DNA of 64,000 nt. Source: Halobacterium jilantaiense (GTDB lineage Archaea; Halobacteriota; Halobacteria; Halobacteriales; Halobacteriaceae). A program made the position numbers and the translations under genes. The stretch spans positions 1 through 64,000 of the forward strand of contig NZ_FOJA01000002.1 of the NCBI RefSeq assembly GCF_900110535.1. The letters run 5' to 3'. Shown piece after piece: positions 23,565 through 43,243 of the stretch (positions are counted from its first letter, which is position 1; every line of letters starts with the position of its first letter). Under the pieces are notes generated by a model. That model saw only the letters and a list, made by a program, of their open reading frames with translations, was not told the DNA's origin and did no database searches.

Positions 23565-26500
23565 ATGTCTCGTCGTCTACTACTTACCGGCCCTGAGTTT
23601 TCCCAATTGGAATCTCACGCGTTCAATATTCTCGAGGAACAAGTAGGAACCCAGCCGGAGAGCATTCTCTATATTGTGCAGCCGAATCATCCCAAAGACG
23701 TTACCAGAGACCGTTGGAAAAACCACGGGCCATCAGCGGGACTCCGTATTGACACCTTCGAGAACCTCGCTTCCCAGTGGTACAAAGAAGACCAGTACAA
23801 AGGCCAAGTAACCCATATTGATCAACCACTCCTGGACCGACTGGTTGAACTCGGGCTCGAAGGAGTCACCTCGCCAACAAATCCGCTTCACACTAACGAA
23901 CGATTCCCGCGAGCAGGGCTTAGGCGGGAAGCTGAGACACTTTACACCGAACTCGAACAAGCAGGATTGCTTTCACCGGAGGCAATGCAAAGCCGCCTCG
24001 AGCAAGAGGGGGTTGGCGACCGCGCGAAGTATGTCGCTGAACTGGCCGAATCGATCGAATCAGCCAGACAAGAAATCTTGGCCGATGAATTACCAGAGGT
24101 CTATCGCACTGAGCGGATGTATTACGCAACGACGGCAGAGACAGCTCTCTCAGATACTTTTCCTTCTGTGGATGCGGTCATTCTCAGCGGCTTCACCCGA
24201 TATGATCGACTAGAAAGGAATTTTCTCGAACGAATCGTTGACACTTGGCCGACAATTGCTCTCCACCCCAAGCAGATAGATGAGAACTCGGCACTGGGTG
24301 TTGATGCAGGCGCCAAGCAAGCGTTAGAGGCGTATTTCGATCTGGACTTCGTTCGAGAGCATCTCAGCGACTCTGACTCAACCCCTATCGAAACGCGACA
24401 ACGTATCACTCGAAGCCTCTATCGCCATCCCCAGCAGTCACCGTCTACGAGTAACGTCACTGCGGCTGGGTTGGGTCTGACACTATCCGAGCCAGAAACG
24501 GTCCCCGATGAGATCCGAACCACCGCTCGAGAGATCCGGAGTCGGATCTCGACAGGAACGCAGGTCGACGATATCGGCATCGTCCTCACGAGCCCAGTTC
24601 AGTATGCCGATCAAGTGCGGGAGGTCTTCGAAACGTACGAATTGCCGTCCAGTTTACAAACTGAGATCCCCCTCTCCGAGACAGCACTGGGCGATGTGGT
24701 CCAAACGATCTGCCAACTCGCACAGGAACCCCGTACTATCGATACACTTCTTGACCTTCTCACGAATCCGTTGGTCACCATTACTCATACGGAAGAGAAG
24801 CTCGATTACCACGAACTCGCTCGGGTTACGGCTAGAGCAGAGACAAATCGGCTTGAGTCCATCCTTGAATACGTTGACGACGGTATCGCAGCAACGGTCA
24901 CTTCTCTGACTCAGGATGTAGCCGCTCTGTCAGAGGAGTCGCTCGATAAACTCCCTAACCAACTTGACGCCCTTCTTGAGCGTCTCGGCGTTTCGACCGC
25001 ACTGGAAAGTGAACAAGAACTCTCGTCTGGGCTTCGAAAACGTGAACTGCGCGCTCGCGACCGTCTCGACCGGATCCTCGAGACACTCTCCCTCACAACA
25101 CCGTTGGCAGATCCCGAAATCGGTGACAGCGTTGACCGTCTTGAACGCGCTCTTCACGGCGTCTCGGTCCAGCAGTCGATCCGACCACCCGAGGAAAGCG
25201 TCGTTGTCTGTAATCTCGCCGAGGCTCCCCTCCGAGACTTCGAACACGTGTACGTTCTCGGCTTAACGTCAACCCATTTCCCTTCAGATACAGAGCAAAC
25301 CGCTTTCACACGACCCATCTACGAGGCACACGGCGACTTCGAGCAGACCGATGTCTCTGCAGAGGCACGGTATCACTTGAGCGTCCTCCTCGGGAGTACA
25401 GCATCAATTCATCTCTCCATCCCCCAGCAGAGTGCTAGTGGTGAACCGCACGTCGAAGCAGACATCCTGACTGAACTTCGACGGCTTGTCGATCTCTCGG
25501 AGGTGACGATTGAGCCAGCTGACAACGAGCCAGGATGCCAAGAAGACGTGCAGCGGGCAGTCGGCGACGTCCTTCCCGAGACATCCGACGCACGTGTCCA
25601 CGGCCTACTCACGGAAGCAGTTGAAGCCGGATCGGTTAGCAGTACCCAACAGACTCGCATTCAGGCGGGTATTGCCTGCGCCGCGGCACGAGCCGGTCCC
25701 GAATTGACACCCTACGATGGCCAGCTCACAGAAGAGACCGTCTCCCAGATTCACGATACGCTCGACCGCGAGCCGTACAGTCCGAGTCGATTAGAGACAT
25801 ATGCTGCGTGTGGGTTCAAGTACTTCATGCGCCGTGTTCTCGGCATCGAAGCACCGGATCGTTTAACGCGGGAACCCGACGCGAGCGACCGCGGCTCGTA
25901 CATCCACGACGTACTCGAACACTATTACCTGTCCTTACAGTCAGGGGGCAGCGATCCAGTTCACCCAGGTGGCGACTTCGAAACACGGCAACAACAGATC
26001 CTCGACACCGCCCTTGAGCGGCTTGACAATGCATTCGATGATGGCGCCCAAACAGCGTTCCAGGAAGAATGGCTGACGTCCGTGCTCGCTGGACTCGGAA
26101 CTCCAGACACCAATCCATACTATGGACCACATGAGACGCAGGACGGTCGTCCTATTTCACGGGGGCTGTTCTATCGATTCCTCAACCACGAGGCGGAGGA
26201 GCCCGCAAAAACGACCGCCCGACCGACATGGTTCGAAGGCCGGATCGGTAATCCCTACGATGCAGGCACCCCACTCAGCGACGATCCTGCAGAAATCGAG
26301 ACGCCACACGGTTTGGTCCCCATTCATGGACTCATCGATCGCGTCGAGACGGTCCCAGGAACAGACCCAACACAGGTGGTCGTCCAAGATTACAAAACTG
26401 GAAGCTCAATTCCCAGCGAAAATGATGCGCTGACCGGGCTGAAGTTCCAACTGCAACTGTACGCGTTGATGGCCGAAGAAGCACTCAACGATGCCGAAGT

Positions 26501-26915
26501 GGTTGGTGGCGCATACTACCAGGTCTCGCCCCCGAGTTCAGTCAATTCTCGTAGCGGGCTCCTCACCTCACAGGAGATGGCGGTCTACCATGGAAGCGAC
26601 GACGTCGACACACCGCTGCTCCGTCACTCCTACCCGTACTTCGAGACACACGAGGCGTTCCGACGATTCATCGATGAGACAACCCCACAACGCCTCGGGG
26701 ATCTCGCCTCGGGCATCGCAGAGGGTCAATTCCACCCGACAGTCCTCGATCCATCGGACGCCGGATGTCGCTACTGTGACTACGCACACGTCTGTGACGT
26801 CCGCTCGCACCAGCGGAAGGAGGTTATCGAAGCAATCGACGACACGGGTGAGTCAGCGTACGTCCCGCTGAAAGCCAGGGACCACGACCTCGAAGATATC
26901 GTGGAGGTGGAGTAA
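23565..26915 (+). CDS. addB: AddB/Cas4-like PD-(D/E)XK nuclease with Fe-S cysteines
   Basis: 1116 residues. The N-terminal two-thirds resemble an inactivated UvrD-like helicase fold as in AddB: GPEFSQLESHAFNILEEQ at the start, no functional Walker A. The C-terminal third is a RecB-family nuclease: HDVLEHYY (about 790-798), the catalytic DYKTG (Asp942, Lys944) and the LQLYALM motif. Four cysteines at 749, 1068, 1071 and 1077 form the C...C-x2-C-x5-C iron-sulphur staple of AddB and Cas4. The downstream AddA-like gene starts 2 nt after the stop, so the two should form a heterodimeric helicase-nuclease. Such complexes resect DNA ends in recombination and destroy foreign linear DNA; here the setting favours defence. 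The bacterial gene name is used for family resemblance only. Confidence 0.85.
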   Translation: MSRRLLLTGPEFSQLESHAFNILEEQVGTQPESILYIVQPNHPKDVTRDRWKNHGPSAGLRIDTFENLASQWYKEDQYKGQVTHIDQPLLDRLVELGLEGVTSPTNPLHTNERFPRAGLRREAETLYTELEQAGLLSPEAMQSRLEQEGVGDRAKYVAELAESIESARQEILADELPEVYRTERMYYATTAETALSDTFPSVDAVILSGFTRYDRLERNFLERIVDTWPTIALHPKQIDENSALGVDAGAKQALEAYFDLDFVREHLSDSDSTPIETRQRITRSLYRHPQQSPSTSNVTAAGLGLTLSEPETVPDEIRTTAREIRSRISTGTQVDDIGIVLTSPVQYADQVREVFETYELPSSLQTEIPLSETALGDVVQTICQLAQEPRTIDTLLDLLTNPLVTITHTEEKLDYHELARVTARAETNRLESILEYVDDGIAATVTSLTQDVAALSEESLDKLPNQLDALLERLGVSTALESEQELSSGLRKRELRARDRLDRILETLSLTTPLADPEIGDSVDRLERALHGVSVQQSIRPPEESVVVCNLAEAPLRDFEHVYVLGLTSTHFPSDTEQTAFTRPIYEAHGDFEQTDVSAEARYHLSVLLGSTASIHLSIPQQSASGEPHVEADILTELRRLVDLSEVTIEPADNEPGCQEDVQRAVGDVLPETSDARVHGLLTEAVEAGSVSSTQQTRIQAGIACAAARAGPELTPYDGQLTEETVSQIHDTLDREPYSPSRLETYAACGFKYFMRRVLGIEAPDRLTREPDASDRGSYIHDVLEHYYLSLQSGGSDPVHPGGDFETRQQQILDTALERLDNAFDDGAQTAFQEEWLTSVLAGLGTPDTNPYYGPHETQDGRPISRGLFYRFLNHEAEEPAKTTARPTWFEGRIGNPYDAGTPLSDDPAEIETPHGLVPIHGLIDRVETVPGTDPTQVVVQDYKTGSSIPSENDALTGLKFQLQLYALMAEEALNDAEVVGGAYYQVSPPSSVNSRSGLLTSQEMAVYHGSDDVDTPLLRHSYPYFETHEAFRRFIDETTPQRLGDLASGIAEGQFHPTVLDPSDAGCRYCDYAHVCDVRSHQRKEVIEAIDDTGESAYVPLKARDHDLEDIVEVE

Positions 26916-26917
26916 CA

Positions 26918-29900
26918 ATGGTCTCCTACGAAGACTTGACCGACGAGCAGCAACGGGCTGTCAATGCCCTCAACCGGAACGTGACCCTCACAGCCGGGGC
27001 AGGAACGGGCAAGACCACGACGCTGACTGCTCGATATCTGAAGATGATCGAACAGTCGCTCGCGGAACAAACCGACGGCGGGACTGGTGAGGTCCAGCTG
27101 CTACCTGAGCACATCCTTACGACGACGTTCACCGAACGGGCAGCAAACGATCTCGAGGAGAGCGTCCGAACGGAAATCACGGACCGCATTGAGTCACTCG
27201 ATGTCGGGGAGTTCGAGGCCTGGCGTACGGTTGCGGATGAACTCGAGCAAGGGTACATCCACACGCTCCACGGGTTCTGTGCTCGGCTCCTGCGCGAACA
27301 CGCGCTGACGATCGACGCCGTGGATCCTGGCTTCGATACGCTAGACGAAAACGAGACGACCGCACTGATTCACGATACGGTTAGTAGCGTCCTCGAAGAA
27401 TACGAGAATCATGAGGCAACGCAAACGCTGGCCCGGCGGTTCTCACGGAGCCAACTCCAAGACGTCCTGACCGATCTGCTGGGCGAGCGACCGGAGAGTC
27501 TTGAGTGGGCTGATCGGTGGGCGGAGGCCACGGAGGAGGAATACATCTCGTTCGTCGAGTCAGCCTTGCATCCAATCGATCCGGATGAAGCCGCCGAGCG
27601 GCTTGCCCACCCCGACTTCGTCGCGGCTGCGGCTACCCTGCGAGAGTTTGTTGAGACCCCCCCAGATATCGAGACCGGGGGGCAGACCTGGCAGCGCGCG
27701 GAAGGAGTCGTAACTCGACTTGACGCAGGATTCGACGATGGGGTCCCATCCCGAGCCAAGCAGTCGACGATTGCGGAACTCAGTATGCACCTCACCAAGG
27801 GTAGTGGGGAACGCTACGCGGGCTATACGGGAGCCAACACCCGGTGGGGAGACCATCCCCGAAAGGCGGAGTTCGACAGCGCGTTCGAAACACTCGTTGA
27901 GACGCTCCAGCCCGAGGAGTACGCCGTCAACGTGGATCTGGAAATCGAATCGAACAGCTTCCCCCTCGTCCGAGCGCTCGCAGAGCTGACCCAGATCGCG
28001 GCTGCCGAGTACGAGGACCGGAAAGACCGGCAGAACGCTGTCGACTTCACTGATCAGATTTCCTATACCGTCGACTTCCTCCAAGCACCTGAGAACGCCG
28101 ACATTCGCGAAGAGTTACGGGAACAGTTCGAGTACGTGATGGTCGACGAGTTCCAGGATACTGACCCACGCCAGTGGGACCTCATCAAGCTCCTGACGGC
28201 CAGCGACGGGGAAACGTTCGATGCTCAGAACGTGTTCGTCGTGGGCGACGTCAAACAGAGCATCTATCGCTTCCGGAACGCCGACGTCACGCAGTTCCGT
28301 GAAACGGCCACGACTCTCGAGCAGGTATCCCAAGACGCTCAGACCACGGATATAGAAAGCGAGGATGACGACCAACTTTCGACGAACTTCCGAACGCTGC
28401 CGACGGTGCTGGAGTCGATCAACGAACTCTTCGAAGCCATCTTCGACGAAGACGGTGAGCCCTACGAGGCGGCTCCCCAATCCCTAACAGCCGATCGCGA
28501 CGATCCAGCAGATCTCGGTACTGTGGAGTACCTCACGGTGCCAACCGATGCCGACCTCCGAGAACACCATTGCGGTCACTACGCGGACTTTGCGACAGCC
28601 GAGCCGGAACACGACACAGAGTTGGAGGCGATGGCGCTCGCCGCTCGCCTCTCCCAGATACTGGCAGAACCGCTCCAAGTCTACCCCGAAGAGGATGAAA
28701 CGGACGACGATAGTAGCGAGAGTGAACCCGCTCCCGAAAGCGGACTGAGTGACCATGAGGAGACAGCGGAGGGTGATAAACCCCCGGAGCCACGGGACAT
28801 CAAACCGAGCGACATTGCTCTCCTCATCCGCAGCCGCACCCACCTCAAAAAGTACGAACGAGCACTAGAAGAGGTGGACGTCCCCTATTCAGTCGCGTCC
28901 GGGATTGGCTTCTACGAATCGACAGAAATCACCGCGCTGTTGAACCTCTTCCGGGCGCTCGCCGATCCAAGTGACGAACGGGCACTCTACGCAGCGCTTC
29001 GCTCGCCGCTGTTCGGGCTCACCGACGACACGCTCGCACAGTTGAAACTCCATGACGACTCTATGTGGGACGCACTCGCGACGAGTGAGCATCAGGAACT
29101 CCAAGATGCCTATGAGCATCTCCAAGAGTGGCGTCATTTGGCAGGGCTTGGCGACGAGGAACCTGCCGGATTCGACGGGTCGTGGGCTGCGTATCTAACA
29201 CAGATCCTCGAGGATACAGGCTACTTGGTGAGTGTCAGCGCCGACGAGCGCCCACAACAGGCGATGGCGAACGTGGAGAAGTTCCGCGAACAGCTTCGCG
29301 GCTGGAGCGACGATGGCGTTCGGAGTCTTACGACACTTGTGAGTCGGATCGAACGCCGCATTGAGCTCGGCGGCCGGGAAAGCGAAGCTGACACAACCGG
29401 CGAGGGCGTCCAGATTCTCACGATCCACGACGCCAAGGGGATGGAGTTCCCGTTCGTCGTCGTCCCGGGGACCGGTCGCGAGTTCAAGGACGACGCGGCC
29501 CTGGGCGGCGGGAAAGTCGAGTTCGAGCAGATTGGTGGCCAGCACGCAGTCGGAATGAAGGCACCAAGCCCGGACGACCCGTTCGAGATGGTGGATACGA
29601 TCGCCCGTGACACGATTCGTGAGCGGCGTCGCGCCGAAGAACGCGCCGAAGAAAAACGCGTGCTCTATGTGGCCTGCACACGAGCACGAGACCATCTGCT
29701 CCTGAGCGGCCTCCACGAGGCAGCTGGAGAGACCGAGGAACCAACGATGACGGGTCTCGAGGAGCCGGACCCTGAGTCAGCATCAAGTTGGCGCGACTGG
29801 GTTCAGCCAGAACTCCTCACCGAGGACGTGTGCACTGCCCTCGATTCCGATACCCATACCCGGCGTACGTACGGTGACGGCGCGTACACCGTGTCGCTCC

Positions 29901-30751
29901 CGACACCGCCAGCCGAACAGGTGCAACCTGATCCCGATATCGACCCTGAGGTTGAACTGTCACCGCGTCCGCCCAAGCCAGATGTCAGCTTTCGGTTTTC
30001 GGCGACTGACCTCGCGTCACTCTTCGGGGAGTATGGCGAACTCCAGTTCGACGAAGACACAGGGACCATCTACGTCGAAGAGACCGACGATAGCGAGACG
30101 AGTCCAGAGAGTCGACACGGTGAAGAGCAACCAACAACCGGAGAGAGTGAAGCAGACGGCCGTTCAGTAGAGGAAGCGAGTGCCGAAACGGACGGCGTCG
30201 ACGCGAGCGTATTCGGCGAGATGGTGCATCGGCTCTGCGAACTGCGGCCGCCTGAAACGCACTGGCCACATCTTATGGAACAGACCCTTGTTGACGAGGG
30301 GGCCACGGTCTCACTCTCACCCGAACTCCAAAACCGCGTGAGTACCCATGCCCAGCGCGGTATAGACTACGTTAACGAGCAAACCACCGACGTCAACGTC
30401 GAGCACCAGTACGACGAGCTGTATGTTACTGCGGAATTCGAGCGCGGGGAGATATCGGGGTTCATCGACCACCTGATCATCACGCCCGACGCGTACCATA
30501 TTATCGACTACAAGACAGGTGATGTCACTCCCGAGGAACTGGAAGCTGACGCGGAGTATTACGAGAATCAGATGAAGGCGTATGCGATTGCGCTGAATCA
30601 ACAGGAGACTGCCCGTCGTGTCCGGGTTTCACTCGTGTTCACGACACTCGATGACGCATGGGACGTTGAGTGGTCACCTGATGAGATAGAATCGATGAGG
30701 AAGCAGATCAGCGAGGAGATCTGGGAGCAATTTGAATCGCTTGAGCGTTAA
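26918..30751 (+). CDS. addA: AddA-like UvrD/RecB helicase-nuclease
   Basis: 1277-residue SF1A helicase fused to a RecB-type nuclease. Walker A AGAGTGKT is at 26-33, Walker B MVDEFQDTD at about 408-416, motif IV-VI elements include TIHDAKGMEFP and LYVACTRARDHL. The C-terminal nuclease has GEMVHRL (about 1105) and the catalytic IIDYKTGD (Asp1197, Lys1199). Low-complexity acidic linkers lie near 605-630 and 1050-1095. It follows addB with a 2-nt gap. Its stop overlaps the stop of the convergent phosphoesterase by 3 nt. An exonuclease V-like role in end resection is known for the family; association with the neighbours is inferred. Confidence 0.9.
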   Translation: MVSYEDLTDEQQRAVNALNRNVTLTAGAGTGKTTTLTARYLKMIEQSLAEQTDGGTGEVQLLPEHILTTTFTERAANDLEESVRTEITDRIESLDVGEFEAWRTVADELEQGYIHTLHGFCARLLREHALTIDAVDPGFDTLDENETTALIHDTVSSVLEEYENHEATQTLARRFSRSQLQDVLTDLLGERPESLEWADRWAEATEEEYISFVESALHPIDPDEAAERLAHPDFVAAAATLREFVETPPDIETGGQTWQRAEGVVTRLDAGFDDGVPSRAKQSTIAELSMHLTKGSGERYAGYTGANTRWGDHPRKAEFDSAFETLVETLQPEEYAVNVDLEIESNSFPLVRALAELTQIAAAEYEDRKDRQNAVDFTDQISYTVDFLQAPENADIREELREQFEYVMVDEFQDTDPRQWDLIKLLTASDGETFDAQNVFVVGDVKQSIYRFRNADVTQFRETATTLEQVSQDAQTTDIESEDDDQLSTNFRTLPTVLESINELFEAIFDEDGEPYEAAPQSLTADRDDPADLGTVEYLTVPTDADLREHHCGHYADFATAEPEHDTELEAMALAARLSQILAEPLQVYPEEDETDDDSSESEPAPESGLSDHEETAEGDKPPEPRDIKPSDIALLIRSRTHLKKYERALEEVDVPYSVASGIGFYESTEITALLNLFRALADPSDERALYAALRSPLFGLTDDTLAQLKLHDDSMWDALATSEHQELQDAYEHLQEWRHLAGLGDEEPAGFDGSWAAYLTQILEDTGYLVSVSADERPQQAMANVEKFREQLRGWSDDGVRSLTTLVSRIERRIELGGRESEADTTGEGVQILTIHDAKGMEFPFVVVPGTGREFKDDAALGGGKVEFEQIGGQHAVGMKAPSPDDPFEMVDTIARDTIRERRRAEERAEEKRVLYVACTRARDHLLLSGLHEAAGETEEPTMTGLEEPDPESASSWRDWVQPELLTEDVCTALDSDTHTRRTYGDGAYTVSLPTPPAEQVQPDPDIDPEVELSPRPPKPDVSFRFSATDLASLFGEYGELQFDEDTGTIYVEETDDSETSPESRHGEEQPTTGESEADGRSVEEASAETDGVDASVFGEMVHRLCELRPPETHWPHLMEQTLVDEGATVSLSPELQNRVSTHAQRGIDYVNEQTTDVNVEHQYDELYVTAEFERGEISGFIDHLIITPDAYHIIDYKTGDVTPEELEADAEYYENQMKAYAIALNQQETARRVRVSLVFTTLDDAWDVEWSPDEIESMRKQISEEIWEQFESLER

Positions 30752-32157
30752 AGCGTGAGTTGGACCCGCTGATGGCGAAGCGAATTCCCATCTTGAGTGA
30801 AAAGTCCGACTACGGGCTTGATCGAAGCTTGGCGGGCTCGCTGGGGCTCCGTGGTCCCACCGAGTACGAATGGGAGTTCCTCGTTCCAATCGATACCCGT
30901 GCGGTGGAGATGCCCAGCAGCAATCGCATGGACGTGAGAACCAACAGTTGCGGCGACATCATCGACCGTACACTCTGGCCAATCACTATTGCTAATCGGC
31001 TTGATCGATTGATGGATTGCAGCGATACCGAACCGATCGGTGGATGGGGGGTTGGTTAACCAGCTTGTAGACTCCCATCCCGTAGCCGGTGTGAAATCAC
31101 GACCATAGAGAGCCAGTCCCTGACCGACTAGCTGTGGCGTTTCGTTAAGCTGCGTAACAAGCCCGTGTCGTTCGAACTCTCTGAGGACTTCTCGACCGCC
31201 ATCGCGCTCGTGGTCCCCGTCTATCGAATAGAAGGGAATATCCCGCTCAGCTAGCCGTGTGAGTTGATCCTGTGCCGCGTCTTTCACCGAGCGAGGGATG
31301 CCATGCCGGTCATTATGGAAGAGATCTCCCGTATTGAGTACGGCGTCAACTTCACGCTCTATCGAGATGTCTATCGCACGACGGAAGCCCGTTAGACACC
31401 GGCTGTCGGACGAATACTCTCCTGTCTTTGTTAGTGACGCTCCTAAATGAGAGTCTGAGAGATGCAGCAGAGATGTCTGCGACTGCAGCTCGTGACCAGT
31501 AGTCGAGATCTTTCGCTTGTACGCATTTGCACCAGCGTATCCAAGCTGACTCCAATCATGTTGTGAGTCCCGCTTGCCACTCACATGTCCGGCCACCGAT
31601 GCTGGGTCACCTGTGTATTCACAGCCGGAAACGGGACAAGCGACCGTTCCTGAGGAGGATGTGGGCAGTTCATCATACAGTTCGACGTCTCCTATGACTG
31701 AGCCCTCGTGCCCATCGCCCGTAGCGATGTCCTGATTAACAGGGATTCCGGTGGCTGTGACCCATTGTGAATTAGATCCAGAAATCTCCTCAACTCTGAT
31801 TTTGACCTCCTCGTTAAGCTCTGCTCCGGGAACTTCGATGCGGATACCCTCCTTCTCAAGTAGAGGAAACCCCTCGGCAGATCGCTTGAGGATCCGCCCA
31901 GAAACGATATCTCCCACTGAGAGGTCTTGGGCCGTGGATTTTGTTCGTTCAGCGTAGACGTCCTTCCGCAAATCAGAGTCCACAGGTTCAGCCTCATTCG
32001 GTCCGATCATCCGAACTTCAACCGTCTTCCCGACCGCCTCTTCACGGACTGGGCCGACAATGAAATTGCTGCCATCATCTTTCTCGACCACGCCATTTCC
32101 TTGATTACTGAGCCGATCAATTGTAGCCCAAAATGTCCGTTCGCCTGAGTTACCCAT
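30748..32157 (-). CDS. TRAM-domain Mre11/SbcD-like metallophosphoesterase
   Basis: 469 residues. Residues 10-60 and about 72-125 look like two TRAM/OB-type nucleic-acid-binding domains. A C2H2-like zinc motif follows (C174, C179, H191, H200). Residues 228-430 are a calcineurin-like phosphoesterase: HLSDSHLG (Asp235, His237), NTGDLFHNDR (Asp278), DGDHERDG (314-319) where Mre11 usually has GNHD, IHQS (His382) and GHLH (His416, His418). It should cut DNA or RNA ends in a Mn-dependent manner like Mre11/SbcD. No Rad50/SbcC ATPase is nearby; the AddAB-like pair converges on it, so it may act with that complex. It lacks the Mre11 capping domain's usual length. Confidence 0.8.
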   Translation of the reverse strand: MGNSGERTFWATIDRLSNQGNGVVEKDDGSNFIVGPVREEAVGKTVEVRMIGPNEAEPVDSDLRKDVYAERTKSTAQDLSVGDIVSGRILKRSAEGFPLLEKEGIRIEVPGAELNEEVKIRVEEISGSNSQWVTATGIPVNQDIATGDGHEGSVIGDVELYDELPTSSSGTVACPVSGCEYTGDPASVAGHVSGKRDSQHDWSQLGYAGANAYKRKISTTGHELQSQTSLLHLSDSHLGASLTKTGEYSSDSRCLTGFRRAIDISIEREVDAVLNTGDLFHNDRHGIPRSVKDAAQDQLTRLAERDIPFYSIDGDHERDGGREVLREFERHGLVTQLNETPQLVGQGLALYGRDFTPATGWESTSWLTNPPSTDRFGIAAIHQSIKPISNSDWPECTVDDVAATVGSHVHAIAAGHLHRTGIDWNEELPFVLGGTTEPQRARQASIKPVVGLFTQDGNSLRHQRVQLTL

Positions 32158-32363
32158 TATCGATCAGACTCTCGTATGCGTCAAAACGTTTTCCGCGAAT
32201 GACTCTTCCGTAGGAGAGTATCGATACAACTCTCTGGAGTGGAGTCGGACCAAAATCGCCCGTCCGCGCAAGAGCGTAGATCCGATTCCCGTACCGTCCG
32301 GCCGAAACGCATCAGCTGGTGATGCTCGGGCTAGCAGGTGTTTTAATTAGATGTCCAGTTGGT
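32158..32363. promoter_or_regulatory. Divergent promoter region, phosphoesterase / TBP-like protein
   Basis: 206 nt between two divergent genes. A TATA-like TTTTAATTAG at 32341-32350 lies about 20-30 nt before the cluster of ATGs that can start the plus-strand gene. For the minus-strand gene I see no distinct box. Confidence 0.45.
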
Positions 32364-35300
32364 ATGATGTGTATGGGAGCGCGGAAGTCGGCGGTCGAGG
32401 TAGCCGGACAGGAGTTCGGCATCACGCCTGAGGAGCCATACTACTGGGTACAGCTACTCCAACCCGTTCACAACGAAACGCTCGCGGAGGACCTCGACAC
32501 GGAGGCAGTACGATACTCGCCGACTGAGTTCCCGGGACTCCTCTATCAGCCATTGTTCGGGGACGAGACGTTCGTCTTTGTCAATCAGGGGGCATTCCTC
32601 ATCAATCTCACGAACGCGACGGCTGAGGAGGCCGAAGATAGCATCAACGAACTCCTCCCGACGCTCGTGGCAGGGGGTGTCCTCGAAGGGGAGGACCACA
32701 CAGAAGTCAAAGCAATCTCACATGAGCAGTTATCGGCGGACGGCGTCGCTACGACTGATGAGGGGGATGAAATCGAACTCACGGTTTCAATTCCCAATGT
32801 CATGCAGTCGTTGGTCGGCCGACCACTGTTCGATCCTCGAGACCGGCTGGTCGTACCGGACTCCGAGTTGACACTTCGGTTTGACAAACTAGCCGATGGC
32901 GAGCAGATTCGATACGAATACGCTGACGATCGTGGGTCCCTTGAGCTGACGACTGCCCCGGATGGAGCCACGTTCTTCGGTATGGACACCGATGAACAGA
33001 TTGGGTTCGTCTTCACCCGCGACCGACTCCGGTACCAGTTCGAAACGCCTGGGAGCTATTACTGTTCGGTATCCAACTCCGGAGCGGTTATCATAGGGAC
33101 TGGTGTGACTGACGCGAGCGTGATTGTCTACGATGAAACGGGCCGTCGGGTCTTCAAGACAGGCATGGCGTCGATTGAGGAGGTAACAATCAGCCCCGAC
33201 GGTCGGCAGTTTGGCTATGCTGGCCACGTGGGGGAACAGTACCAGGAGGTCGTCGTGTTGTGCGAATGTCTTGACGATGGAACGGTCGCACAGACGACGC
33301 TCACCGACTACGGCTCAGTCAAGTACGATCCCAAAGGCGAGGGGTTTCTGGTCGCGGAGCAGCCGAGCGGCGTCTTTTCCGCGCTGCTTGCACCGGACGG
33401 ATCCGTGATCGAGGAGTACGATCGCGAAACCTCTCGTGGCGATGTCGAGGAGTTGCTGACCCGGCTCAAGGAGCAGTCATCTGGAGACGACGACATTGTG
33501 GGCGAAATCAAAGCAGCGGTTCAGGAGGAGCCTACGCCGTTTGCGCCCCACGTCCCTTTATTTGTGGACCGACTCGCCGACAATGAGTTTTCTCGAGGGC
33601 CGACAACGGACATTCCTCGACTGTTCAAGACACTCGCCGAGGAGGCGCCATCGGCGTTCAAGCCGACACTCGATCAGGTTTTTCACCTGTTGGAATATCC
33701 CGACGGCCACCAGTCAGAGAGTGCTGTCGCCGTTCTCCAGCAACTGCTCAAGAATGACGTGGCACAAGAACGAATCGTAAAGCGGCTGCACCGCGTGGTC
33801 GCGGGCGACGATACGGACTCTCAAATCCGGGCGCTACAAGCGTTGCAAGGACTCCCCCCAGTCGACCTCGTTGAGTACCAGGCCACCCTCGATCAGTTGC
33901 TTGAATTACTAGCTCAAGATATGCCGCCGAAGATGATGCTGCCGGTCACGGAAGTTCTCAGCGTCCACGAGCATCAAGAGGGGAGTGCAGCGATCGTGGA
34001 AAGCATCGTCGCGGCCGACAAGAACGACGTGCTGGTGGCTCTTCTCCAGCACGGGCACAACCGACGTGGAGAAATCATTGGATCAGGGTTGATGGCCACC
34101 ATCTCTGCGTCTCTTGACGACTCGGAGAAAGGGTCCGAAGAACCAGTCGATCGAAACGTCGCCCTCGGTGGGCGCGAGTTATACCATCTCAACCAGAGCG
34201 TCGCAACTCTTCTCTCGACAGTCGCTTCCAAGCGGCCCGATACCCTCGTTCCCCACCTCGGTCGCCTGCTGTTGGATGTAAATACGGAGGGGGAGTCGAT
34301 GAAGGTCGTTCGCAAAAATGCAGTCGACATCGTCGAAACGCTCGTCGAGCAGGACCCTGACAGACTCGGAGTGAGGGCAGAGCGAAATGCCGACGTGATC
34401 ATCGACCTTCTCAATCACGACAAGGTCCGGGTGGGTACGCTTGGTGTCCAGTTGGCCGCGCTCGCCGGAACAGAGCGTACCGAACAAGAAATACAAAAGA
34501 TCGCCGAGACGCCGTCACATCACCTTTGGAACGACGCCACCGACGCCCTTGACCAAATCGGGTCTGGCTTCGATTCCGACTGCGACGCCCCCGACAGCTC
34601 TGGGGGTGACAGTGACACCGTCCTAGAGCCGCTGACGCGAGTCGCTCAGTTCCCGGTTGATCCGACAGTGGCGCTGTCGGTTCCCAGTCCGGAGGACATC
34701 AAACGATATCGGGAAGACGCCAACAAGGAGCGAAGTGACATCGAGCGCCGTGGTGAAGACGCCCCACGCATCCACCGCAGTTACATCGCCGCACTAGAGA
34801 ACGGAGCGGTGAGTCCACGACTGTCCGTACTGGCCGATGTAGTCTTCGCGACGATACCTGAGGAGAACGCTACCGCTGCGTTTCCGACCGGGCCGCGGAT
34901 TCTGGCGCGTCGTGAAGAGCTGGACGTCCCCCGATCGAGACTCGCCGAGCAAGCAGGGTGCTCCACCAACCGGCTGCGTGCCTTCGAGACGAATCAGGCT
35001 GATCCGCAGGCCCACGAACTCGAACGGATTGTCGACGCACTCGAAGGCCGAGATGTGCAGGGTGCGTATCCGGTACGAGACACTGTCCGTGAGGATTGGA
35101 TCGAATACGGGACAACGCTCGCTGAAGCACTCGGACGATTCCCGAAATCCAGCGAGATGGTCCAGGATGTCGATGGGAATCCCAGTGTGAGTGAGGCAGA
35201 CATCGGTTTCAACGGTCCGGTGTCCGTTGACCTGGATGTCGAGATACCAGAAGTTCCCCACTGGTCTGTCTTTGACGGCTGGGATGAACTACTGGCCGTA

Positions 35301-35501
35301 CTCGATGTCAGCACCGAGCACCGGGCATCCGGAAGCCCCCTCCGTTCGACACTAATTGAAGAACTTCGAGAGATCGACGATGTCATCGACGGTCGGCCGA
35401 AGACGGGCGACATCGACGAACACAGCGAGTTCTCCTATTACTACTACAAGAAGGAGTTCGGCGGGATTCGAGACGCATTCGATGCTGCCGGAATCACCTG
35501 A
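32364..35501 (+). CDS. Multidomain protein: TBP-like half, HEAT-like, XRE HTH, HNH_repeat
   Basis: 1045 residues from the ATG at 32364; ATGs at 32367 and 32373 are equally possible, and 32319 would put the TATA-like box inside the gene. Residues about 28-106 resemble one repeat of the TATA-binding protein: LAEDLDTEAVRYSP, then EFPGLLY (55-61), then a strand and a helix AEEAEDSINELLPTL in the TBP order. A beta-rich middle (about 130-370) is followed by HEAT-like helical repeats (about 375-745). Two XRE-type helix-turn-helix segments lie at about 780-830 and 843-895. The last ~50 residues are an HNH_repeat-type module (PKTGDIDEH...AFDAAG). No catalytic motif is visible. It may sense DNA or transcription state and control its neighbours; that is inference. 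Confidence 0.65.
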   Translation: MMCMGARKSAVEVAGQEFGITPEEPYYWVQLLQPVHNETLAEDLDTEAVRYSPTEFPGLLYQPLFGDETFVFVNQGAFLINLTNATAEEAEDSINELLPTLVAGGVLEGEDHTEVKAISHEQLSADGVATTDEGDEIELTVSIPNVMQSLVGRPLFDPRDRLVVPDSELTLRFDKLADGEQIRYEYADDRGSLELTTAPDGATFFGMDTDEQIGFVFTRDRLRYQFETPGSYYCSVSNSGAVIIGTGVTDASVIVYDETGRRVFKTGMASIEEVTISPDGRQFGYAGHVGEQYQEVVVLCECLDDGTVAQTTLTDYGSVKYDPKGEGFLVAEQPSGVFSALLAPDGSVIEEYDRETSRGDVEELLTRLKEQSSGDDDIVGEIKAAVQEEPTPFAPHVPLFVDRLADNEFSRGPTTDIPRLFKTLAEEAPSAFKPTLDQVFHLLEYPDGHQSESAVAVLQQLLKNDVAQERIVKRLHRVVAGDDTDSQIRALQALQGLPPVDLVEYQATLDQLLELLAQDMPPKMMLPVTEVLSVHEHQEGSAAIVESIVAADKNDVLVALLQHGHNRRGEIIGSGLMATISASLDDSEKGSEEPVDRNVALGGRELYHLNQSVATLLSTVASKRPDTLVPHLGRLLLDVNTEGESMKVVRKNAVDIVETLVEQDPDRLGVRAERNADVIIDLLNHDKVRVGTLGVQLAALAGTERTEQEIQKIAETPSHHLWNDATDALDQIGSGFDSDCDAPDSSGGDSDTVLEPLTRVAQFPVDPTVALSVPSPEDIKRYREDANKERSDIERRGEDAPRIHRSYIAALENGAVSPRLSVLADVVFATIPEENATAAFPTGPRILARREELDVPRSRLAEQAGCSTNRLRAFETNQADPQAHELERIVDALEGRDVQGAYPVRDTVREDWIEYGTTLAEALGRFPKSSEMVQDVDGNPSVSEADIGFNGPVSVDLDVEIPEVPHWSVFDGWDELLAVLDVSTEHRASGSPLRSTLIEELREIDDVIDGRPKTGDIDEHSEFSYYYYKKEFGGIRDAFDAAGIT

Positions 35502-35581
35502 TCATCCGGTTCACTTAGAGTTAGGTCAACCCCCAAATTTCAGGGGCTGGCTGAGAGCGTCCGACAATTTTGGGCTGACGC

Positions 35582-36625
35582 TCATTTTGTCGCCTCGTAT
35601 TCAGCTGTGACTGCATGATCACGCCGTAATTTCTCACGGACGTTTTCGCTACGGCAATCGACATCTAGACGCCGTCGTTGCCAGTCCTCCCCAGATTTGC
35701 CGTTCCACACCCCGTACAGCGTTACCTTTGGGAGTCGCAGAACGCCGAACCGCACCGAGAGCGTGTAGAGCGCATCCTGTAGTTCGTCCCATGTAACAGT
35801 CACCTTCCGTGGAATGTCAACCGGGAAACTCACATGTTGTGCAAGTACCCCGGCCTCACGAGTTAATTCGACGAACCCGTGGTCATTACTAAGGAGAATA
35901 ACTCGCTTTCGGCTATCTTGGTCGTACTCAGCGTAGGCGTCGACAATCGCCTCGTCACCCGTCTCACTCTCAATCGTATCGGCATATCGATGGTCGCGAA
36001 GGCGACGATATTCGTAGAGGCCGAGGAATCCTTCACGATTCGCCCCAGCCGGCTGATTGTCCAGCCGTGCGAACTCGGACCCGAACGCATCCTCGAGGGC
36101 TCGCGTCTCGTAGTGGTTGTAGTGCCAGTTGAGTTCCTCGTAGATACCCGTCGCGAGGGCAAAGCCATTGACTGGACTCCGCCCTTTGTCGTCACTGTAT
36201 CGCTCCGGATCCAGTCGGAGTACGTCCGGCATCCGCCAGGCGAGGAGGTTCGTATCGATGCCCAGTGCCACGGGCTGATGGCCGGCGTCAAGGTCGGGGT
36301 GGCCCTGTCGGCGAAAGAACGTCTCCACGTCTTCGCGATTTTCGATGTCGACGAGACCACCAGCAACGAGCGCTCGGATGTAGGTATCCTTGTCAGGCAG
36401 ATCGTCGTAGGCCTGTTCACCATACATCGTATGGAGTTCCTCACGGGAATCCTGATACGTGAGCGCCCCCTGTGTGAATCGGACCGTGGTTGCGACGGGA
36501 TCGGAGAGGTCGATTTCGAGGAGTTCTCCGATCTCCTCACACGGGTGCCGGACACTAACTGACGTAATACCCTCTGTGTAGAGCGCGTTGAGGAGATGGG
36601 TGATGTGGTGGCGAGCAAGCTGCAT
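35582..36625 (-). CDS. PIN-like nuclease domain protein, partner of CARF protein
   Basis: 347 residues. The N-terminal ~115 residues are an uncharacterised helical domain. The rest fits a PIN-type metal-dependent ribonuclease: LGIDTNLL (Asp124), YEELN (Glu163/164), GDEAIVDAY (Asp224, Asp229) and VILLSNDHGF (Asp248), the four-acid order of PIN domains, ending in a C-terminal extension. Its ATG overlaps the stop of the CARF gene (TAATG), so expression is coupled. With CARF as sensor the pair would make a split version of the CARF-nuclease effectors known from type III CRISPR systems. Substrate (RNA more likely than DNA) is inferred. Confidence 0.75.
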   Translation of the reverse strand: MQLARHHITHLLNALYTEGITSVSVRHPCEEIGELLEIDLSDPVATTVRFTQGALTYQDSREELHTMYGEQAYDDLPDKDTYIRALVAGGLVDIENREDVETFFRRQGHPDLDAGHQPVALGIDTNLLAWRMPDVLRLDPERYSDDKGRSPVNGFALATGIYEELNWHYNHYETRALEDAFGSEFARLDNQPAGANREGFLGLYEYRRLRDHRYADTIESETGDEAIVDAYAEYDQDSRKRVILLSNDHGFVELTREAGVLAQHVSFPVDIPRKVTVTWDELQDALYTLSVRFGVLRLPKVTLYGVWNGKSGEDWQRRRLDVDCRSENVREKLRRDHAVTAEYEATK

Positions 36626-37098
36626 TAGAAAACCTCCTGGAAATCAACAAGTTCGATTACTGGTCTGGGGACATCGGGATACAATCGGCCGTAAAAGCGG
36701 TTGTTCGAGACGTAGAGATAGAAGACGTGGTCGGCCTCGAACTGAATCCCCGCCTGGAACGCGATCGCCGACATAAACTTTCGACCAGGAGTGACATCGA
36801 CCGCTGCCGTACCCCCGTCGGCCTGTATCTGGGCAATCGGTTCACGAAAGTGTTCGACGATGCCCTGGAAATCTGTCTCCGTCTCGAGCTGCGTCACGGA
36901 GAGGCCAGGATCCTCACCGCCGTATTCGACGACCACACGCTCCATCATAGACGTGATATCATCGAATTGGTCACCGACCCCAGGGTTCTCCAGTACGTAC
37001 AGTTCGTCGGGGAGGAATCCCTCCTCACAGGCCGCGATGAGAGGGTTGATGACCGCTTCCAGGTTCGTGGTCATCGTTGTGAGCCACGCATCAACCAT
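36625..37098 (-). CDS. Stand-alone CARF-domain protein
   Basis: 157 residues, one domain. The motif VDVTPGRKFMSAIAF (100-114) matches the ligand-binding loop of CARF domains (usually D/N-h-TGGTK-x-Ms), followed by ADHVFYLYVSN as in CARF strand 5. The N-terminus (TNLEAVINPLIAACE, then LYVLENP) fits the first Rossmann unit. CARF domains bind cyclic oligoadenylates made by type III CRISPR Cas10 or related nucleotides and switch on an attached effector. Here there is no attached effector; the PIN gene follows in a TAATG overlap, and the ADP-ribosylglycohydrolase gene ends 3 nt upstream. No cas gene or CRISPR array is in the window, so the ligand source is unknown. Confidence 0.8.
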   Translation of the reverse strand: MVDAWLTTMTTNLEAVINPLIAACEEGFLPDELYVLENPGVGDQFDDITSMMERVVVEYGGEDPGLSVTQLETETDFQGIVEHFREPIAQIQADGGTAAVDVTPGRKFMSAIAFQAGIQFEADHVFYLYVSNNRFYGRLYPDVPRPVIELVDFQEVF

Positions 37099-37101
37099 TG
37101 T

Positions 37102-38952
37102 TCAGCGACCCCCTGACTGAGCGGTGGTGGCTTGCCATTGCTCGTGCTCGATCTCCGGATGCCGGACTGCTACGCGTCGAAGCGATTCGTACATGACATG
37201 GAGTTCTCCGACCATCGTGTGAGCCTTATCACGGAGGTCCGCAAGTTGATCCTCTGGACTGGTGTCCGTCAACGTCCGTTGCTGCTGCGGGAGACGAAGC
37301 CGGGTGACGTAATCCAGAATAGCTCCTGTACCGCTTGCTAATTGCGGGAAGATTTCGGCAACTTCGTGGACGGCGCGTGGGTGGTCAGCAATGATCTCTT
37401 CAGCGATCGAGGTATCGAAGGCTCCTTCGATCTCCGCTGGCGAGTCATAGCCACCACTCTCGTTGCTTCGCAACAACACTTTGCCGGCGTCGGCGAACGT
37501 GCCGACTAGCACTCGCGTCGCCCCCGCGATCGGATCCATGCGTTCGATGCCGACCGTGTCGGTCTCGGTTTTAGTTATTGGGTGCCGAATCCCTGCGAAC
37601 GCCGCGTACGCCCGAACGAACGCGTCCGCTGCCGCCTGCCCGTCACGCTTGATTCGTTGCTGATCTTGGTCGGGGAGCTCATCGAAGGCGTCGACGAACG
37701 GATACTGTGGCACAGGAACGAGCGTCGGCTGTGAGAAGCCCGGTTCCTCATCGAGGTCGGTCTGTGGGGCAGCGTAGGTGGAAGATCGGCCACTGTCGAC
37801 CGCGTACGCTCGCCGTTCCCAGTCGAGCATCGCAGCCGTCGCCGGCGTCAGATCGTGGTACGCAGTGCTGATAGTACGATGTGGCGCGGGATGGGTACGG
37901 TGTCCGATGGTCGCCTCCTGAAATTCGCGAGCCGAAATATACGCAGGCCCCTCGATGGTGCGTTCCTTGAACACGAGGGTCCCATCATCCATAGTCGTAT
38001 ATCCCTTACCGGGGATCTGCATCCGGATCGTCAACAATCGCTGTGCTAATCGCTTGAGACGGCCAGATTCTTCGATCTCTTCGGTCCATCGATTCGGTAT
38101 ATTGGTCGATCCGAATCGAGCGCCAGCGACAGCGCCGGCGATCGCACCGACAGTATCCGTGTCGCCACCATTGTTCACAGCCTGAACGATCGCTGTTTCA
38201 GCAGACTCAGCAGTCAAACCGTAGTAGAGCCCAGCCTGAAGCGAGTCGACGACGTATCCAGAGGTCGCAAGCTGGGCTTCAAACGCTGCCGCGTCGCGGT
38301 CGCCAGTGACGACTTCCTGCACCTGCGTGAGCGCCGTTCGAAGTTCGTCTGGAGCTGAATAGGTATTCTTGAGCGCAGTTCCGAGTGGGTCGCGTTCATC
38401 GCGAATCAGGTTTGCGAGTGTTCGGTTGAGAATCACACAGCCCCACCGGCAGCGCGGGTCGGCATGTGTGATCGCCGACGAAAGCTGACTGACCTGAGTG
38501 AGTTCCGCGTCAAAGTGACGAAATGCGATCGCGTGTGGTGCACACCGCATCACGCTTCCGTTGCCGGCATTGGAGCCTTCCGGTCGCGACTCCCAGACGT
38601 CCGGACCAGCGTCGTCCCACGAAGCTCCTTGTCTGATCCGGGATAGGGAATCACGCGTCATCAGTCCGATGTCGAACGGCCCAGAATCGAGCCAGTCGAC
38701 GAACCGATCCGCCACATCGGCCGGATCGAACCCGCGACTGTCAGCGAGACTCTCCGCGATACAGAGCGCCATCTCGGTGTCGTCAGTGATCGTCCCCGGT
38801 GGCTGGCCGTGCGTGCCGTGACCAAGCATCTCCGTCACTTCGCCGTGTTGGGATTGGATCTCCTCGGCGCTGTTGAATTCGACTGGTCGACCTAGTGCGT
38901 CACCACAGGCCAACCCGAGGAGACACCCCTCTGCGTTACGTTCAATTGTCAT
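37102..38952 (-). CDS. ADP-ribosylglycohydrolase with unknown C-terminal domain
   Basis: 616 residues. Residues 1-310 are an ADP-ribosylglycohydrolase (DraG/ARH family): GCLLGLACGDALGRPVE at the start, metal-binding ITDDTEM (56-61) and NNGGDTDTVGA (260-270), both acidic clusters of the di-metal site intact. These enzymes remove ADP-ribose from proteins or nucleic acids. The C-terminal ~300 residues are unlike anything I recognise, mostly helical with a long AAADAFVRAYAAF helix. It precedes the CARF gene by 3 nt and follows the HEAT gene after 85 nt, so it may have its own promoter. In this context it could be an antidote or regulator of an ADP-ribosylating toxin, but no such toxin is visible nearby. 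Confidence 0.8.
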   Translation of the reverse strand: MTIERNAEGCLLGLACGDALGRPVEFNSAEEIQSQHGEVTEMLGHGTHGQPPGTITDDTEMALCIAESLADSRGFDPADVADRFVDWLDSGPFDIGLMTRDSLSRIRQGASWDDAGPDVWESRPEGSNAGNGSVMRCAPHAIAFRHFDAELTQVSQLSSAITHADPRCRWGCVILNRTLANLIRDERDPLGTALKNTYSAPDELRTALTQVQEVVTGDRDAAAFEAQLATSGYVVDSLQAGLYYGLTAESAETAIVQAVNNGGDTDTVGAIAGAVAGARFGSTNIPNRWTEEIEESGRLKRLAQRLLTIRMQIPGKGYTTMDDGTLVFKERTIEGPAYISAREFQEATIGHRTHPAPHRTISTAYHDLTPATAAMLDWERRAYAVDSGRSSTYAAPQTDLDEEPGFSQPTLVPVPQYPFVDAFDELPDQDQQRIKRDGQAAADAFVRAYAAFAGIRHPITKTETDTVGIERMDPIAGATRVLVGTFADAGKVLLRSNESGGYDSPAEIEGAFDTSIAEEIIADHPRAVHEVAEIFPQLASGTGAILDYVTRLRLPQQQRTLTDTSPEDQLADLRDKAHTMVGELHVMYESLRRVAVRHPEIEHEQWQATTAQSGGR

Positions 38953-39037
38953 AGATTCACGATATTATCCCTCTCGGATAGTTCTACACCAGCGAACTCT
39001 CCGGACCGAGTCAGTAAGCGAGAGGTCCAGACCGGTC

Positions 39038-40813
39038 TCATGCGTTGATCTGGGCGAGCGCCCACGATGCCCTCGTGCGGACATCGGCGTTGTCATCATC
39101 ACGTGCTCGGTCTTCCAGGGCCGAGGTCGCGTCTCGAGCACAGAGGTGTCCGAGCGCCCAGCAAGCGTTTTCACGGACGAGCGGATTCTCGTCCGACAGT
39201 AATTCCACGAACGTCGACGTGACGTGTTCGACCGAATCCGGGAAATCCTCGGCGACGCGGCTGAGGGCACCGCTCGCATTGATTCGTGTGTACGTGTCGT
39301 CGACGGTCAGCAATTCAGTGACCTCCTCGGTGTATGGCTCGACCACGTCGGTGTGAACAATCGCCACGTCGCCGATTAGTCCGATCGCGTTGTTCCGGAG
39401 TTTGGGGTTGTCGACGTCGAACAGAGTCGCGACGTCGTCGACGATCTCGACGCCGACGCTCGGGTACTCTCCGACGATCCGGCCGAGCCCAGCGGTCGCG
39501 TTCAACCGAACGCTGTCGGACAACGAGTCACGGAGGGTGACTTCCCCAAGTGTCTCCGCGACCGGTTTCACTTCTTCCGGATACTCGCGCGTGATCCGCG
39601 AGAGTGCGTACACCGCGTACTGGAGTCCGTCGGCGTCATCCTCAATGATAGTTGCAAGCGCCGGAACGGCGTCCACAGCATCCTCGGGGTCTTCGTCAGC
39701 AATCGTGGCGATACATCTGGTCGCTTCACGCCTGACGGAGACAACGTTTGACTGCAGATACGGTACGAGTTCGTCGGTGAGCGGAGCGATCGCTCCCGGG
39801 TCGGCATCACCAATCGCTCGGAGAGTGGCCAGCACGTCGGCCCGATCCAGTAACTCGTCACGTGCCAGCAGTGACCGGAGGATTGGAATCGCCGGCGTAC
39901 ACTCCTCTGGACGCACCGCCGCCACCCGACGGAGTGCCTGGATTGCGTCCTTATCTCGAACCCGATCTTTGTCTTCACGGTCCAGAAGTGCGAGAAGCGA
40001 CGAGATACGGACCGCATCTGGATGTGTATCAGCGAGTCGGCGGAGCCCGGCTGCCTCCTCGGCAGGCGTCCCTGCGCCCGCCGTGTAGCGATCCGGTGGT
40101 GGATCGACCACGGAGAGCAACTCGATTGCATCGACGGGAACGGTAAACTGGTCACTATCGGGTGCCAGCGGCGTGCATTGGAGCGCCGGCGCTGCCGAGG
40201 GGCGTTCGAGTGTCACCGCGTGAAGGGAGACGTCGTGGCACAGCTGCGTTCGTTCGGCCCCATCGTCGATATACGTGAGTTCGAAGCCGGGCGCATCAGC
40301 GTGGTCGTCGAGAAACGACGACAGCATCGACGCGTTCGCAGGCATAATCCCGGCGGACGACGGGATCCCACCGTCGGTCTCTAAGTCACGAATCCACGGG
40401 AAGTCGGGATGGATGTCTCCCCGTTCGACCGCGGGAACGAACTCCCACGCGTGGTAGTGCTCCCACCCGTCGACATCACTCAGATCGAGGTCGTCGACAA
40501 CGACGTAGCCGTCGGCGTCCGGGTGCAGGTCGGCGATGAGTGAGAGACGCTCGCGCCGGAGCGGGAACTGCTCGTACCGACCGTCGGGCTGTTTCTCACC
40601 GAGCCACGCGTCCCAATCGTCGGGGTGGCGGCCGACGATGTCGACGACACCCGGAATCGCCGCTTCGTCGGCCAGCGTCTGATTGCCGATAGCGTAGACC
40701 GCGTGCGGCGTCTTATGCGCGAGATGACGCACCCACTCCAGCGGGACGGCGTCGTGGCGGGGATGTGGATTCACGTCAACGGTCCAGTCGCGGTCGAACG
40801 CGAACACGAACAT
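39038..40813 (-). CDS. HAD-like N-terminus plus HEAT-repeat protein
   Basis: 591 residues from the ATG at 40813, which overlaps the stop of the VWA gene (TGATG); the open frame extends to 40855 but would overlap it by 43 nt. The start FVFAFDRDWTVDVNP has the Asp-x-Asp of a HAD-type hydrolase motif I (7-9), and VYAIGN and VVVDDLDL fit later HAD strands, so an N-terminal HAD-like domain of about 200 residues is likely; activity is uncertain. Residues about 265-591 are HEAT/armadillo repeats (ALRRVAAVRPEE, LRAIGDADPGA, ATRCIATIADEDPE and so on), a protein-binding scaffold. Translational coupling with the VWA gene suggests a complex. Confidence 0.75.
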   Translation of the reverse strand: MFVFAFDRDWTVDVNPHPRHDAVPLEWVRHLAHKTPHAVYAIGNQTLADEAAIPGVVDIVGRHPDDWDAWLGEKQPDGRYEQFPLRRERLSLIADLHPDADGYVVVDDLDLSDVDGWEHYHAWEFVPAVERGDIHPDFPWIRDLETDGGIPSSAGIMPANASMLSSFLDDHADAPGFELTYIDDGAERTQLCHDVSLHAVTLERPSAAPALQCTPLAPDSDQFTVPVDAIELLSVVDPPPDRYTAGAGTPAEEAAGLRRLADTHPDAVRISSLLALLDREDKDRVRDKDAIQALRRVAAVRPEECTPAIPILRSLLARDELLDRADVLATLRAIGDADPGAIAPLTDELVPYLQSNVVSVRREATRCIATIADEDPEDAVDAVPALATIIEDDADGLQYAVYALSRITREYPEEVKPVAETLGEVTLRDSLSDSVRLNATAGLGRIVGEYPSVGVEIVDDVATLFDVDNPKLRNNAIGLIGDVAIVHTDVVEPYTEEVTELLTVDDTYTRINASGALSRVAEDFPDSVEHVTSTFVELLSDENPLVRENACWALGHLCARDATSALEDRARDDDNADVRTRASWALAQINA

Positions 40814-42906: not shown

Positions 42907-43243
42907 GGTGTCAGTTTTGACTGCCCTTCCCCGGGCAGTCAACGGGTGATTGGCGATGGTGTATTCGCCTCCGCTGGAGACGGGCTGGCAAAATAACCAT
43001 CACGATGCGGCTTTCCACACTCCTACACCCATCAGTGTGCGCTATAATGAGATAAATGCTTCGGCGAGGAGCGGTATAGTGGTGTAAGATGGGGAAAAAG
43101 CACTCTGCGATGTGCATTACGCGATATTGTGGCGGGTATCGCACGCCGTAGAACGGATAGATCCTGAGTAATCGCCGCTACACTGTGGGGTGTTGAGTCG
43201 AAACAATCATTGGAACGGACATCATGGGTCAGGCAACGAGATC
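42907..43243. promoter_or_regulatory. Divergent intergenic region, VWA / AAA ATPase
   Basis: 337 nt without a gene. It is AT-richer than the flanks; CTATAATGAGATAAATG near 43042-43059 resembles a TATA element but lies far from either start, so a leadered transcript or a control site is possible. Nothing else stands out. Confidence 0.4.

Follow-up and report, generated by a model that had tools for sequence, protein, structure and literature searches.

Why does a protein of an archaeal antiviral island carry half of a TATA-box-binding protein (TBP)? The question is raised by one open reading frame in the window, the 64,000 nucleotides of Halobacterium jilantaiense DNA that we analysed (contig NZ_FOJA01000002.1, positions 1 to 64,000). 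An earlier note on this DNA had described the product as a fusion of a TBP-like half-saddle with HEAT-like repeats, a pair of XRE HTHs and an HNH_repeat module, and had suggested that the TBP part could detect promoter DNA, TFB or a phage protein that targets host transcription. The features on which our answer rests are collected in Table 1.

Table 1. Features of the TBP-lobe gene and its surroundings (window positions)
Feature	Position	Strand	Remarks
AddB-like and AddA-like nuclease/helicase genes	23565..30751	+	upstream context
Mre11-like metallophosphoesterase	30748..32157	-	upstream neighbour
Single-gene cassette	32196..35559	.	missing from the metallophosphoesterase-PIN interval in Halobaculum halobium (L064) and genome G379 (L098)
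TATA-like box TTTTAATTA	32341..32349	+	centre 28 nt upstream of the ATG at 32373; conserved in Halosegnis rubeus
Candidate protein ORF	32364..35501	+	1045 aa as given; intact
TBP C-lobe-like domain	32448..32681	+	residues ~29-106; homologue of the haloarchaeal TBP second lobe
Partial beta-propeller (WD40/TolB-like strand pattern)	32901..33413	+	residues ~180-350
HEAT-like alpha-solenoid	33441..34568	+	residues ~360-735; weak
First XRE-type HTH, degenerate	34689..34853	+	residues ~776-830; HTH_3 and HTH_31 give two stretches
Second XRE-type HTH	34896..35054	+	residues ~845-897; PF01381 6.5e-8, PF13560 7.7e-8
HNH_repeat (PF18780) module	35349..35495	+	residues 996-1044; E=4.1e-13
CARF-PIN, CARF, ADP-ribosylglycohydrolase	35582..38952	-	downstream context

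Homology of the N-terminal domain to the second TBP lobe

Sequence comparison confirmed that the homology of residues ~29-106 to TBP is real. When PDB chains were searched with phmmer, the region matched five TBPs and no other protein (best E=7e-5), and the NCBIfam TBP model NF001593 matched residues 33-97 (E=0.0038). Pfam family PF00352 gave seven matches in the H. jilantaiense genome, six within true TBP genes and one in the TBP-lobe protein, the latter at 13.8 bits and thus under the curated cut-off of 22.9. A profile of 12 TBP C-lobes scored 28.4 bits against the window copy and 30.4 bits against a second copy in Halosegnis, and the best of 2000 shuffles reached 8.5 bits, so that the similarity persists in profile comparison. 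In pairwise matches the second TBP lobe (E down to 1e-8) was far better than the first (about 1e-2), which bears out the claim that these residues resemble the second half of an archaeal TBP. Divergent TBPs with FPGLIYRP-type stirrups matched better than the standard TBP. A single stretch of the protein matches TBP; the two pseudo-symmetric lobes are not present.

Searches started from the domain itself led back to TBPs. Its two-row profile matched 344 of 384 haloarchaeal genomes (E up to 0.01); nearly all matches listed lay in TBP-size frames, and the non-self ones inspected were TBPs. No larger TBP-containing relative was found among the matches listed, two of which lay in long open frames and were ordinary TBPs. 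A tblastn search of 72,556 plasmids (7.3 Gb, E up to 1) gave seven records, every one of them from haloarchaea; five carry the label TATA-box-binding protein at the matched position, one the label 'transcription factor', and one has no annotation. The chromosome of H. jilantaiense itself carries two divergent TBP genes in tail-to-tail order (G000:C1:834102-835196, L082); one of them has an odd degenerate first lobe and a second lobe without the VQN motif.

Structure prediction was consistent with this assignment when TBP rows were supplied. AlphaFold gave the region a pLDDT of about 30-50 from the two-row alignment. With 11 TBP rows added, the model showed a strand-helix-four strands-helix order at a pLDDT of about 70, and comparison with the PDB found TBPs (E from 1.5e-4, 1qna; TM about 0.67). 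This second model is biased by the rows of its own alignment and is no independent test of the fold; we therefore take it as a consistency check and not as fold proof. The TBP-like fold expected in the earlier note thus appears with TBP rows in the alignment and not from the two copies.

Residues that contact DNA and TFB are replaced

In TBP, the C-lobe glutamates C.L3.2 and C.L3.4 contact TFIIB/TFB, and the almost universal phenylalanine at L5.1 contacts nucleic acid (PMC7221094). We mapped these sites by alignment, not through the numbering table of that paper. At C.L3.2 and C.L3.4 the two copies carry S52 and T54/A (S-P-T or S-P-A), where all 12 compared TBPs have E-P-E. L5.1 is V73/I in the two copies and phenylalanine in 12/12 TBPs, although F72 adjoins V73 and a register shift of one residue is possible at this site. 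The first stirrup phenylalanine and FPGL are retained, and stirrup residues 55-72 are identical between the copies except for one L/I change. Thus, the lobe appears to be altered at key DNA- and TFB-contact residues. The first of the roles suggested earlier, detection of promoter DNA or TFB, is therefore not supported in its canonical form. Because these residues are lost, a protein-contact or bait module is more likely than a promoter reader.

Remaining domains of the protein

The two XRE HTHs and the HNH_repeat at the other end of the protein were correctly recognized before: PF18780 scored 49.9 bits against a Pfam cut-off of 26, and the XRE HTH passes its cut-off as well. By eye, the first HTH shares a pattern with the HTH of an HTH-CBS protein. 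We considered an origin of the HTHs from archaeal MBF1 and rejected it; TIGR00270 gave eight matches in the genome and none in the TBP-lobe protein, and the one inspected match of 180-186 aa was an HTH-CBS regulator.

The middle of the protein is assigned with weak to moderate confidence. The HEAT-like repeats of the earlier note appear to be right, with weak matches (Adaptin_N 0.018, HEAT_EZ 0.04, one HEAT-like protein 9e-5). A relationship of this region to the neighbouring HEAT protein of the island was unconvincing (E 0.05). The propeller-like stretch, which the note did not contain, has an AlphaFold pLDDT of 53-89, Foldseek matches to propellers at low TM-scores and a match to the WD40 protein PkwA (E=0.24). 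Consistent with the earlier statement that the protein has no enzyme motif, Pfam, NCBIfam and PADLOC gave no enzyme family, no HEPN and no RNase H nuclease domain, and we saw no catalytic motif. No PADLOC match defined a system; the matches were of HTH type, the best at 1.7e-5.

The gene, its homologue and its selection

The only homologue found lies on a plasmid contig of Halosegnis rubeus (NZ_QJOW01000006.1) and shares 79% identity along its full length. There was no further homologue in 394 class-sample and 394 order-sample genomes, 148 genomes of the Halosegnis family, 177 of the phylum, or the plasmid and viral collections, and the N-terminal domain was not found in phages; the genome-contig and viral scans used short exact peptide patterns. 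As the frame is intact and its homologue stands at a dN/dS of 0.29, the ORF is a real protein gene.

The ATG at 32373 (MGARKS/MGTRKS) is the first that is present in both copies. Since this ATG and the TTTTAATTA box are maintained in both, it is probably the true start, which would give a protein of 1042 aa. Spacing between promoter and start codon is a guide to leaderless transcripts in haloarchaea, and the position of the box suggests such a transcript here.

The gene is under purifying selection. Between the two copies, dN/dS was 0.15 for the HTHs, 0.12 for the HNH_repeat, 0.22 for the TBP lobe (dS 0.36), 0.32 for the HEAT region and 0.38 for the propeller region, so that the XRE and HNH_repeat modules are the most constrained parts of the protein. 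The dN of the gene was 0.112, compared with 0.013-0.090 for AddA, AddB, PIN, CARF and VWA in the same two genomes. The island's HEAT gene was left out of this comparison, because the start codon taken for it lay too far 5'.

A one-gene cassette in a variable slot

The TBP-lobe gene lies in a plasmid-type haloarchaeal island of antiviral genes. Farther upstream are BREX genes (PglX, two BrxC, BrxA, BrxB, PglZ), DNA methylase genes and one gene of Mrr type, and they are followed by AddB, AddA, the Mre11-like gene, the TBP-lobe gene, CARF-PIN, CARF, ADP-ribosylglycohydrolase, HEAT, VWA, AAA and two DEAD helicases, one of which carries four HNH_repeats. The module from AddB to AAA occurs in other haloarchaea, with an AddA-PIN slot of variable content. 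The slot is empty in Halomontanus and Halococcus, and holds a 153-aa ORF and a phosphoesterase remnant in Halorientalis litorea. Genome G379 has the phosphoesterase alone, and so does Halobaculum, but with AddA reduced to a remnant. The window has the phosphoesterase and the TBP-lobe gene, and Halosegnis has Mre11-like, Rad50-like and TBP-lobe genes. Both copies of the TBP-lobe gene thus occupy the same slot.

Within this slot the gene forms a unit of its own. By blastn, homology to the Halobaculum halobium locus runs up to 32195 and resumes at 35560, and TCCG stands on either flank (32192-32195 and 35560-35563); a target duplication or microhomology by chance could explain these four bases. 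The cassette matches Halosegnis over 32203-32264 and 32269-35554, and the immediate neighbours there differ on both sides. From these boundaries the gene seems to move alone, with its own promoter. Lone mobility makes it less likely that the protein depends on its neighbours as partners, although both copies share a slot. We rejected the gene as an obligatory part of an AddAB/CARF operon: the island of G379 has AddB, AddA, metallophosphoesterase, PIN, CARF, ADP-ribosylglycohydrolase, HEAT, VWA and AAA and lacks the TBP-lobe gene, as do other close islands.

A hairpin-like CTCTTCCGTARGAGA lies close to the left end of the cassette (window 32203-32217) in both genomes. The left end has weak matches in three other haloarchaeal plasmids, and the two inspected were intergenic. 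IS-like ends were considered and rejected; the hairpin motif is not in excess over the control in its own genome.

Proposed role of the protein

Our best reading, which we hold tentatively, is that the gene encodes an accessory protein of plasmid-type haloarchaeal islands that works in defence or regulation as a self-contained unit. We count in its support the location among BREX, AddAB, CARF-PIN and methylase/restriction genes, and it is this gene neighbourhood that suggests a role in defence. The C-terminus is predicted to bind DNA because of the XRE HTH and HNH_repeat families found there, and we propose that these modules would hold the protein on DNA. The propeller and the HEAT-like scaffold would display a TBP second lobe that lacks the canonical docking residues for DNA and TFB. 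A factor that recognizes TBP, either a virus protein or TBP itself, could dock on this lobe or be decoyed by it. The DNA-bound protein might then block or alter transcription of the invading element, with no enzymatic step. Protein contact at the transcription machinery would be its most likely mode of action. Taken jointly, a contact or decoy surface and interference with the invader's transcription make up a proposal that is possible rather than probable. The lobe may also be a sensor of virus proteins aimed at host transcription. Plant immune receptors carry integrated decoys, and a comparable logic would apply if a disarmed transcription-factor lobe were to bait virus proteins that attack TBP; we regard this particular form as quite unlikely.

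Other readings give the lobe a different task. The protein might be a regulator of its island that represses or activates the CARF-PIN or AddAB promoters, with the TBP lobe touching the basal machinery. XRE HTHs are typical of repressors, no enzyme is recognizable, and the slot is the same in both copies; however, near-identical islands such as that of G379 do without the gene, the gene seems to move alone, and a repressor could be far smaller than a 1045-aa protein with a propeller-like and a HEAT-like part. We find this reading rather doubtful. Alternatively, the lobe could pair with TBP or TFB, or the lobes of a dimer could form a saddle, and promoters would be marked or blocked. Its true TBP lineage, as opposed to the distant bacterial TBP-lobe families, would fit such a competitor or partner, as would the retained first stirrup phenylalanine and FPGL and the presence of two divergent TBPs beside the standard one in the genome. 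The single lobe, and the replacement of the TFB glutamates and the L5.1 phenylalanine in both copies, make it unlikely.

It is also conceivable that the protein is a defence enzyme whose catalytic domain has diverged too far to be recognized, and that the TBP lobe and HTHs merely aim it at DNA. Residues ~107-180 and ~898-990 are without a domain assignment and would leave room for it, and RnlA and RNase HIII do combine TBP-like lobes with nucleases (PMC3710099). The searches of Pfam, NCBIfam and PADLOC and the lack of a visible catalytic motif count against it, and we consider it very unlikely. Finally, the lobe could be a functionless TBP fragment on a larger gene, a chance or decaying fusion. 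That there are two copies only, with DNA- and TFB-contact residues lost, would agree with decay, but the dN/dS of the lobe at its dS lies below that of the propeller and HEAT regions and the stirrup is almost unchanged between copies; this explanation is highly improbable.

Relation to known systems

Like the second lobe of haloarchaeal TBPs (PF00352), the domain has the FPGL stirrup and, in the model built with TBP rows, the same order of strands and helices; the two align along ~65-95 residues with an identity of about 30-35%. It differs in that one lobe is fused to about 940 further residues, and in its replaced TFB glutamates and L5.1 phenylalanine and its score under the Pfam cut-off. Fusions of a single TBP-like lobe to other domains are already known from the bacterial proteins RnlA and RNase HIII (PMC3710099, PMC7221094), and RnlA (RNase LS) also shares an anti-phage setting. 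However, their partners are nuclease domains, L5.1 is aromatic and their lobes belong to a distant bacterial lineage, whereas the present lobe goes back to an archaeal TBP proper, in a protein in which no nuclease was seen. Within the island, the 1596-aa DEAD helicase at 44958-49748 carries the same PF18780 module; it has a helicase and four repeats, whereas the TBP-lobe protein lacks a helicase and shows a single clear repeat.

Mot1/BTAF1 is a eukaryotic HEAT protein that clasps TBP, with TBP as a separate protein and an ATPase present. It brings TBP and HEAT repeats together in one machine, and we draw it in as an analogy and claim no homology.

What is new is the combination of domains and the origin of the lobe from a true archaeal TBP. 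The open-access papers searched describe it nowhere, in agreement with the impression of the earlier note that the architecture was undescribed. A lobe that served basal transcription in an archaeal TBP is now part of a mobile protein of a defence island, with altered DNA and TFB contacts. If the protein acts at transcription initiation, archaeal TBP would appear as a target of viruses or as a route of host defence, which is directly testable in laboratory haloarchaea.

Other features of the island module

The haloarchaeal plasmid-type module AddB-AddA-[slot]-CARF-PIN-CARF-ADP-ribosylglycohydrolase-HEAT-VWA-AAA is recurrent (window 23565-42942; loci L062, L063, L064, L065, L066 and L095-L102) and might constitute a separate system. 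Some records give its CARF protein the label 'CRISPR-associated ring nuclease'. The annotated stretches inspected showed no CRISPR type III genes. In Halosegnis (L038:11407-11775) and Haloplanus (L065:13541-13909) the ADP-ribosylglycohydrolase is reduced to residues ~6-36 and 517-616, with the same boundaries in the two different genomes. In Halomontanus rarus (L063:16759-21681), a DUF4011 protein lies between CARF and ADP-ribosylglycohydrolase and marks a second variable slot.

The 153-aa ORF in the Halorientalis litorea slot (L062:19192-19825) has no Pfam match, and the phosphoesterase remnant beside it spans 45 residues. The string AGGGGCTGGC occurs 3' of this ORF and also at the right end of the cassette (window 35542-35551), which may be chance. 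The neighbouring HEAT protein (window 39038-40855) has, by eye, a HAD-like N-terminal stretch, FAFDRDWTVDVN. Its start is probably the Met at codon 15, because in relatives the open frame does not extend farther upstream.
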